Below the pieces are notes generated by a model. The model made no database searches. It had not been told where the DNA came from and saw nothing but the letters and a program-made list of their open reading frames with translations. 64,000 nucleotides of DNA, from positions 1 to 64,000 of the forward strand of contig CAIMZS010000205.1 of NCBI GenBank assembly GCA_903846015.1. Direction: 5' to 3'. Source of the stretch: an uncultured Anaerolineae bacterium (lineage in GTDB: Bacteria; Chloroflexota; Anaerolineae; Anaerolineales; Villigracilaceae). Position numbers and translations under genes: made by a program. Numbering within the stretch: the first letter of the stretch is position 1; each line of letters starts with the position of its first letter. Below are positions 46,245 to 49,647 of the stretch, one piece after another.

Positions 46245-46715
46245 ATGAAAAAAGAAAATAAAGACACGCCAGGGTTGCCCATGCCTCCGCCATTCCTGAT
46301 GGCAATATTCCTGGTTGTAGCATTGGCCTTTGGCTGGAAACTGCCGATACCGGTGGCGTGCCCGTGGTGGATGCAGGTTATTGGAGGGGCGGTGGTGCTC
46401 AGCGGGCTGGCCTGTGCCTTTAGCGCGGTAAGAGCAATGTTCCATGCCCAAACCTCGCCCAGCCCGCGCAACCCAACCAGCACGCTGGTGACAGACGGAC
46501 CATACAAATTTACGCGCAACCCGATCTATCTCGGTTTCATCCTGGCAGTGATCGGCCTGCCACTGATGCTTGGTTTTTACTGGGGCGCCATCCTGGCGCC
46601 AGTGGCAGGAGATGCTTATAACCGGCTGATCATCGAACGCGAAGAGACCTATCTTGAACGCAAATTCGGCAAGGCTTATCTCGATTACAAGGCAAAAGTG
46701 CGCAGGTGGTTGTAA
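46245..46715 (+). CDS. Isoprenylcysteine carboxyl methyltransferase (ICMT)-family membrane methyltransferase
   Basis: TDGPYKFTRNPIYLGFILAVIGLPLM, EETYLERKFGKAYLDYKAKVRRWL. Confidence 0.88.
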   Translation: MKKENKDTPGLPMPPPFLMAIFLVVALAFGWKLPIPVACPWWMQVIGGAVVLSGLACAFSAVRAMFHAQTSPSPRNPTSTLVTDGPYKFTRNPIYLGFILAVIGLPLMLGFYWGAILAPVAGDAYNRLIIEREETYLERKFGKAYLDYKAKVRRWL

Positions 46716-46743
46716 AACTATTTGTCAATTTAAGTGCTCCAAA

Positions 46744-47340
46744 TTGATAAATAAAAACTTCTTCGCCGTTTTCAGAGAGATCCCGTTGTGCAATTTGCTG
46801 GCTGCGCTGCTTTTGTTGGTGTCAGGCCTGTTTGTGACCACCCTGCTGGCCCTCAATCCAAAGGCAGACCTAGAGAAGGATGCGAAAAGCGAGTTTGATT
46901 TTGCCAGCAATCAAATTACCGAGGAAGTTACAGAGCGCTTCAACGAACTTGCTCAAATTCTCTACAACGACGCGGCGCTCTTTGCGGCTTTAAATAACGT
47001 TACCCACCAGGTATAGGTATCAAGATAAATTCTTTCCAGACCATTTTGATATCGTTCCAGTAAGAACCTCTGGACAATGTGCGAAACGGCGCACTTTGCC
47101 GTTGAAGCAATCTCCCTGAAAGTCGACATTGCCCATTTTACGGGAGACTGCTTCCCGATAAGATCATTCGGGATGATATCGCAGCGACATTGAGACTTGT
47201 TTTGTGGAAAAAACTTTTCTGGACAGCTATATGGCAAGCCTTTGCTCAGCACCTGACCATTGAGAGTCAATCGCCGGGTATGCAGGGGTTGGGTTATGCG
47301 GTCATCATTAATTTGAGCGTTTTCAGATTGGTAAGGATAA
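46744..47340 (+). pseudogene. CHASE-domain sensor gene remnant, interrupted and truncated
   Basis: INKNFFAVFREIPLCNLLAALLLLVSGLFVTTLLALNPKADLEKDAKSEFDFASNQITEEVTERFNELAQILYNDAALFAALNNVTHQV | (218 nt) | WQAFAQHLTIESQSPGMQGLGYAVIIN, stop shortly after. Confidence 0.75.
47014..47229. mobile_element. Putative non-autonomous MITE-like element with TA duplication
   Basis: Imperfect ~27-32 nt terminal inverted repeats (TAGgTaTCaAGAtAAaTTcTTTCCA / TAGcTgTCcAGAaAAgTTtTTTCCA), internal hairpins, removal of element plus one TA restores the CHASE reading frame. Confidence 0.65.
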
Positions 47341-47352
47341 GGAAAATTCCCC

Positions 47353-49647
47353 ATGCTGGCATCGATTAAAAAATGGCTTGCACCTCCTGTTTTTGAAGGC
47401 GATGAAGGAAAATCGCTCCGCGCCAGTTTCCTCAATTTAACGATATTGATATCTCTATCTTTTTTGGGGCTCATGATCCTTGGAACTTTGTTGACTAATT
47501 CTTTGTTTGTTGGCAGAATCCGCGTGGGAATACTCTTCACCATATCAGTCCTGTTTTGTGTTGTTTTACTTTTTTACTATTTACTTCAGCACGGTAAAGT
47601 TGCGCTGGCAGGCATTGGATTGATGATCATGGTGTTTCTTGCGATCATTACCGGTTCAATCATCAATGGGACGGTTCGCGTTCCGGTCTCATTGGCTTAT
47701 CTGTTTGTGATCATTACGGCGGGGATAATGTTTGATTGGCGTGGTACCCTGCTTTCCGTCTGCATTTGTTCGCTGGCTGTGCTGGGATTGATTCTGGCTG
47801 AAAACGCAGACATACTGCCCCAACCGGCTCATGTCATTCCGCTGGCAAACTGGATTAGCTACACGTGGATATTTGGGTTGATAGGAGCCGTATCTTTGTG
47901 GGGGCAACGGAATACACAACAAGCGCTTGGTCGTGCTGAACGAGAAATTAAGGCCCGTCAGCGCGTCGAGATGGAACTGCGAATACTTTCACGAGCTGTC
48001 GAACAAAGCCCGGCTTCGATCATGATTACAGATCTGGCTGGGAATATCGAATATGTTAATCCCCGCTTTACCCAGGTCACAGGTTACAGTTCTGATGAAG
48101 CCATCGGAAAAAACCCGCGTATCCTGAAAACGGATCTCACTGCGCCTGATACGCATATTCAACTATGGCAGACAATCACGCAAGGAAAAGAATGGCATGG
48201 AGAATTTGTAAACCGTAAAAAAGACGGCACTATATATTACGAGTCTGCCACCATTTCAGCAATTGCTGACTTGCATGGCACCGCCTCGCAATATCTGGCC
48301 ATCAAGGAGGACATCACCGAGCGCAAACGCGCAGAAGATACTCTGGCACGGACCACCGCCCGTTTAGCGCTGGCTGTGCGCGCGGGCGGGGTGGGCATCT
48401 GGGAGTACGATATCCTTAATGACCGCTTGATCTGGGATGACCAAATGTGCCGCCTGCACGGCATCTCCCCACAGGACTTCAGCGGCGCTTACGATGCCTG
48501 GCAGCAGGGCCTTCACCCGCAGGATCGCGAGCGCGGTAACGATGAAATTCAGGCCGCACAGCGCGGTGAAAAGGAATTTGACACTGAATTCCGGGTCGTC
48601 TGGCCGGATGGCAGCTTCCACGACCTGCGCGCGCTGGCGATTGTCCAGTGGAATCAGGCTGGTGAGCCCATCTCGATGATCGGAACCAATTGGGATATTA
48701 CCATTAACAAACAAGCTCAGGAAAAGGTTGCCGAGCTGGGGCTGAGAAACCAGACTCTCTTCAATACCGTCACGGATGGCATTTACGTTCTTAATGATCG
48801 GGGGAAAGTAATAGATGCCAACCCTGCCTTTAGCAAGATGCTGGGATACACACTGGAAGAACTGAAACTGTTGAATGTGGCCGACTGGGACGTGCAGTGG
48901 ATACCTGGCGAGATTGCGATTAAGGTCAGCGAACTAATCGATCATCCCGCGATGTCCGAGACGCGCCACCGGCGCAAAGATGACGTAATCGTGGATGTCG
49001 AGATCAATGCCGTTGGCGTGACACTTCAGGGACATAACTACCTTTTCGCTTCTGCGCGAAATATCAGTGTGCGTAAAGCCTCCGAGGAAAAGATTCGATT
49101 ATTGAATATCGAGTTGGAAAACCTGGCCCTGACCGATTTTCTGACCAATTTATCCAACCGCCGCTATTTTATGCTGAGTGGCGCCGAAGCGGTCAAACGT
49201 GTCATGCGCAACAAAGAACCCCTCTCGCTCTTAATGCTGGATATCGATTGGTTTAAGAAGGTTAATGATAAATATGGCCATGAAGTTGGGGATTGGGCAA
49301 TTCAGCATGTGGCAGCGGTTTTGAAGTCCAGTCTACGTGAAATTGATATTCTGGCGCGGATTGGCGGCGAGGAATTTGCGGTACTGCTGCCAAACACTGG
49401 CCAGGCTGAAGTAGCTGCGCTGGCTGAACGGGTTCGAAAATTAATGCAAGCTACACCTTTCGAAACCGCCGGGGAAGCTATAAGCATAACCATCAGCCTG
49501 GGGGCGGCTGTTTTCGAGAAAGGAATGACCGATATCGATACCTTGCTTAGAAATGCTGATGCGGCTTTGTACCAGGCCAAGCGCAGCGGTCGTAACCGTG
49601 TGGTGATGTTTCAAGATATTCTCCCCCCCGCAGGGGATGAGAAATAA
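47353..49647 (+). CDS. Membrane PAS-PAC-GGDEF diguanylate cyclase
   Basis: N-terminal multi-TM region, [62 protein letters not shown] motif. Confidence 0.93.
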   Translation: MLASIKKWLAPPVFEGDEGKSLRASFLNLTILISLSFLGLMILGTLLTNSLFVGRIRVGILFTISVLFCVVLLFYYLLQHGKVALAGIGLMIMVFLAIITGSIINGTVRVPVSLAYLFVIITAGIMFDWRGTLLSVCICSLAVLGLILAENADILPQPAHVIPLANWISYTWIFGLIGAVSLWGQRNTQQALGRAEREIKARQRVEMELRILSRAVEQSPASIMITDLAGNIEYVNPRFTQVTGYSSDEAIGKNPRILKTDLTAPDTHIQLWQTITQGKEWHGEFVNRKKDGTIYYESATISAIADLHGTASQYLAIKEDITERKRAEDTLARTTARLALAVRAGGVGIWEYDILNDRLIWDDQMCRLHGISPQDFSGAYDAWQQGLHPQDRERGNDEIQAAQRGEKEFDTEFRVVWPDGSFHDLRALAIVQWNQAGEPISMIGTNWDITINKQAQEKVAELGLRNQTLFNTVTDGIYVLNDRGKVIDANPAFSKMLGYTLEELKLLNVADWDVQWIPGEIAIKVSELIDHPAMSETRHRRKDDVIVDVEINAVGVTLQGHNYLFASARNISVRKASEEKIRLLNIELENLALTDFLTNLSNRRYFMLSGAEAVKRVMRNKEPLSLLMLDIDWFKKVNDKYGHEVGDWAIQHVAAVLKSSLREIDILARIGGEEFAVLLPNTGQAEVAALAERVRKLMQATPFETAGEAISITISLGAAVFEKGMTDIDTLLRNADAALYQAKRSGRNRVVMFQDILPPAGDEK

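Follow-up and report, generated by a model that had tools for sequence, protein, structure and literature searches.

Results

A short mobile-type element within a CHASE-gene remnant

The window, the whole 64-kb stretch of DNA that was analysed, contains a CHASE-gene remnant that is split into two parts by a short element and followed by a gene for a putative diguanylate cyclase with three PAS domains and a GGDEF domain (Table 1).

Table 1. Features at the locus, with their positions in the window.
Feature	Position	Strand	Basis or remark
CHASE-gene remnant, 5' part	46744..47016	+	TTG start, membrane segment and start of the domain; the element contributes the stop codon TAG as its opening three bases
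Left TA of the target-site duplication	47012..47013	.	Sequence, and empty-site length that fits 2 bp, not 4 bp
MITE, IS630-type, 216 bp	47014..47229	.	Terminal inverted repeat pair (19/25) and full-length relatives elsewhere
Left terminal inverted repeat, TAGGTATCAAGATAAATTCTTTCCA	47014..47038	+	Matches to the G133 and G053 ends
Central hairpin, GAAGCAATCTCCC...GGGAGACTGCTTC	47105..47154	.	Alignment and folds; core shared with the G147, G176 and G183 elements
Right terminal inverted repeat, reverse complement TAGCTGTCCAGAAAAGTTTTTTCCA	47205..47229	-	G017 match and own-genome sites
Right TA of the target-site duplication	47230..47231	.	Sequence
CHASE-gene remnant, rest	47232..47367	+	CHASE homology to ...GYAVII (47309); beyond it a truncated tail that locus L108 of G008 also has
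PAS-PAS-PAS-GGDEF gene	47353..49647	+	Putative diguanylate cyclase; the copies in the congener have a CHASE fragment upstream and no element

We observed that the boundaries of the element read TAGG...GCTA over 216 bp, with a TA outside each, and that its left and right terminal 25-mers form imperfect inverted repeats, identical at 19 of 25 positions. An earlier note on this DNA had placed an element of ~216 bp at 47012-47231, a span that comprises the element itself and both flanking TA, and had given the same agreement between its ends. When the 64-kb window was searched for TA-flanked pairs lying 60-500 bp apart and matching at 19/25 positions or more, the ends of this element were the sole pair recovered. 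None of 40 dinucleotide-preserving shuffles contained a qualifying pair.

The interior of the element is palindromic. The proposed internal hairpin, GAAGCAATCTCCC paired with GGGAGACTGCTTC at 12/13 positions, is present, and the DNA fold of the element reaches z = -3.24, with no equally good fold among 200 shuffles. The 216 bp contain no complete open frame of at least 60 aa, and an Rfam search with the element returned no match. Since a transposase needs some 300 aa, the element is too short to encode one.

A matching IS630 in a family relative

The earlier note had suggested a non-autonomous derivative of the IS630/Tc1-mariner group and had proposed a search for a transposase with matching ends. 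Such a partner was found in G133, a relative from the same family, and together with the related elements described below it supports the suggestion. The G133 IS630 is complete and 1.2 kb long (G133:C66:10411-11625), with one gene between two such TA-flanked ends. Its transposase of 377 aa carries the Pfam domains DDE_3 and helix-turn-helix and scores 255 bits with NF033545 (cutoff 100). With TA included, the right end of the window element agrees with the transposase-side end of the G133 IS630 at 24 of 26 positions and the left end at 22 of 26, the latter compared by eye. The right end plus TA is identical (26/26) to an IS630 end of a second relative, G017, where at least 21 IS630 ends of this kind occur, mostly at contig breaks, as is expected of a multi-copy IS. 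Seven of these carry transposase C-termini that are 73-74% identical to the G133 transposase. Counting against the match, the left end of the window element has 3-4 mismatches to the best family ends over 26 positions.

The host assembly yielded no intact copy of the matching IS630. The two IS630 transposases that it does contain (C70 and C372) were rejected as partners, because their best TA-flanked ends are unrelated. Beside the end TATAGTTCCCAAGAAAAGTTTTTTCC at locus L004 (G000:C451, about 1530-1676; G000 is the host's own genome) we observed the remains of the matching IS630 transposase, a C-terminal fossil with a frameshift. The end belonging to this fossil abuts a MITE end of the other type, and that MITE seems to have inserted into the fossil. 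A transposase fossil lying against such an end indicates that this IS630 was once present in the host lineage. As only this broken C-terminal piece is left in the assembly, the window element is probably stranded in its host at present.

Related elements carry the same ends

The same ends were found on elements of 100-189 bp in G053, G147, G176, G183 and contig DYSN01000153, in other genomes of the family and order. All of these except the 100-bp G053 element carry a core of the window type, CATTGCGA...GAAGCAATCTC...GGGAGACTGCTTC...TCGCAGTGACA. The left end of the G053 element, again compared by eye, agrees with the left end plus TA of the window element at 23 of 26 positions. An exact scan with the right end across 84,980 species genomes recovered only records labelled Chloroflexi or Anaerolineales and one contig labelled Draconibacterium. 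DYSN01000153.1 (L084), which is filed under Draconibacterium orientale, holds a complete related element and an IS630-like end at the contig edge, and is possibly a wrongly binned Anaerolineales contig.

In G001, part of the core occurs without ends. A near-identical end in the same genome (L051; G001:C43, about 311-603) precedes a frame, MSEQQFDVHIEPMEDIPVLLAKLERMN..., that stops after 50 aa. On reading, this locus proved to be merely a short frame and was discarded as a transposase locus; the frame may be the start of an IS1634-type transposase. Searching the literature for the core palindrome as a string of letters returned matches in unrelated papers only.

Within the host's own genome, pattern and BLAST searches located the right-end pattern TAGCTGTCCAGAAAAGTTTTTTCC at 12 sites, allowing up to 3 mismatches, and a second end type, TATAGGCATCCAGAATAATTCTTGC, at 16 sites, and neither pattern was found when reversed. 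Facing TA-flanked pairs of these sites delimit elements of 235-253 bp that have a different core (C30, C126 and C597). The search for further copies that had been proposed thus recovered both the ends and related full-length elements, in the own genome as well as in relatives; a second full-length copy with the core of the window element was not found in the own genome. A piece of that core lacking terminal repeats lies at L002 (G000:C335:3588-3642), where it is 85% identical over 55 bp, about a quarter of the element, and the core may therefore also occur on its own as a palindromic repeat. The own-genome MITEs (L005, L007, L021 and L024-L037) contain the short repeats GATAGTGCCCGTTCTAGCAGGGCCGGTTCAGAC and ATTTACGCAGATTACGATGATTACGCAGATTAGAGC, in copy numbers that vary from element to element.

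The empty site indicates a TA duplication

Removal of the element with one TA restores a frame in which ...NNVTHQV is followed directly by WQAFAQHL.... As the earlier note had anticipated, this is a credible CHASE continuation: at the junction the restored frame aligns gap-free to six CHASE relatives that lack the insertion (from G000, G008 and G010), with 41-65% identity. One of the six, L111, has a gap elsewhere, upstream of the junction. Two others of the set come from contigs C209 and C50 of the congener G008, where the same downstream PAS-GGDEF gene lies beside the site, with no element, and its DNA is up to 84% identical over 1.1 kb.

In these relatives the empty site has a length that fits the proposed duplication of a 2-bp TA. 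A 4-bp TATA duplication is excluded, as it would leave 2 surplus bases and break the frame. Given that the target dinucleotide in the empty-site relatives is AA, AG or CA, not TA, we infer that the site in the host genome was TA before the insertion.

We considered whether the element is a simple internal-deletion derivative of an IS630 that retains subterminal IS sequence, which would explain both the ends held in common with IS630 and the TA duplication. This origin is unlikely, as no IS similarity is visible beyond the 26-bp ends, and the core is palindromic and recurs in small elements.

The CHASE gene and the downstream GGDEF gene

The description of the element as interrupting a CHASE-domain gene holds in part. 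In the comparison with the six relatives the domain is continuous across the junction once the element is removed, but the gene was already truncated. The Pfam CHASE match is weak because, of its 189 positions, just the first 33 are left. The sequence is homologous to CHASE as far as ...GLGYAVII, and the element-free locus G008:C209 (L108) has the same degenerate tail beyond it, which places the truncation before the insertion. By these alignments, the CHASE gene had been reduced to a fragment by the time the element arrived, so that no intact sensor gene was inactivated.

The end of the element lies 123 bp upstream of the PAS-GGDEF gene, and Correia elements of Neisseria, which have a similar anatomy, can act as promoter or terminator for a neighbouring gene. 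Co-option of the window element as promoter or terminator of the PAS-GGDEF gene is nevertheless very unlikely, as neither a sigma-70-like promoter nor a terminator-like site was found in 46700-47420. An effect on the GGDEF gene may exist but lacks support.

A REP/ERIC-like palindromic repeat between genes, or a structured RNA such as a regulatory RNA, with fortuitous TA ends and not moved by IS630, would suit the strong hairpin core and the end-less core pieces at C335 and in G001. This reading is barely credible given that identical ends occur on an IS630 element and recur around unrelated cores, that the empty site is clean and TA-duplicating, and that Rfam gave no match.

Discussion

The sequence comparisons argue very strongly that the element is a non-autonomous MITE of the IS630-Tc1-mariner type, mobilised by the IS630 transposase of a full-length relative, and that it landed at a TA in a truncated CHASE fragment. 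It would consist of two putative transposase-binding ends and a palindromic non-coding core. The IS630 transposase would bind both ends of 24-26 bp in trans, excise the element and insert it at a TA with duplication of that dinucleotide, in a cut-and-paste manner; the grounds for proposing this are the ends, the duplicated TA and what is known of IS630-family chemistry. The present copy entered the CHASE fragment upstream of the PAS-GGDEF gene, where it supplies an in-frame TAG.

The biochemical model for such an element is ISY100 of Synechocystis, an IS630/Tc1-mariner member for which 24-bp imperfect inverted repeats are probably sufficient for transposition and whose insertion into TA duplicates the target (PMC2170065). 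By description the two are alike in ends of ~24 bp and in TA insertion with duplication, and mobilisation of the window element in trans is proposed by analogy; ISY100 is autonomous, unlike the 216-bp element.

The window element belongs to an already known kind. As far as descriptions allow, it comes closest to the repeat unit of pneumococcus (RUP) and its partner IS630-Spn1. In Streptococcus pneumoniae, RUP is 107 bp long and present in about 108 copies, and RUP insertions into IS elements have been noted (PMC2229807). The two are likened by small size, lack of coding capacity, IS630-like terminal repeats and a TA target, and the location of RUP in or beside IS sequences has its counterpart at C451. 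The elements described here differ in their length of 100-253 bp, in having at least two unrelated cores, and in their Anaerolineales-type host. The Correia or NEMIS elements of Neisseria, of about 107-155 bp, have terminal inverted repeats of about 24 bp, TA termini, a target duplication and a long stem-loop (PMC2229807). All of these features, and the size class, resemble the window element by description, whereas the host is another and an IS630 partner is not named in that paper.

We tentatively propose, at somewhat less than even confidence, that one IS630 end, nearly invariant across Anaerolineales-type genera and families, mobilises several unrelated palindromic cores, including CATTGCGAGG...GAAGCAATCTC, and that some of the palindromic repeats of these genomes are IS630-MITE cargo exchanged between species. 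A literature search on the host's phylum turned up no report of such a bacterial MITE case.

The element leaves the understanding of MITEs unchanged and is in that respect of modest interest. It does provide a clean case in which a bacterial MITE, an autonomous IS630 partner, an empty site and several sequence relatives come together, and which allows cross-mobilisation by one transposase to be tested directly. In Anaerolineales-type genomes, this type of element would account for a class of palindromic intergenic repeats.
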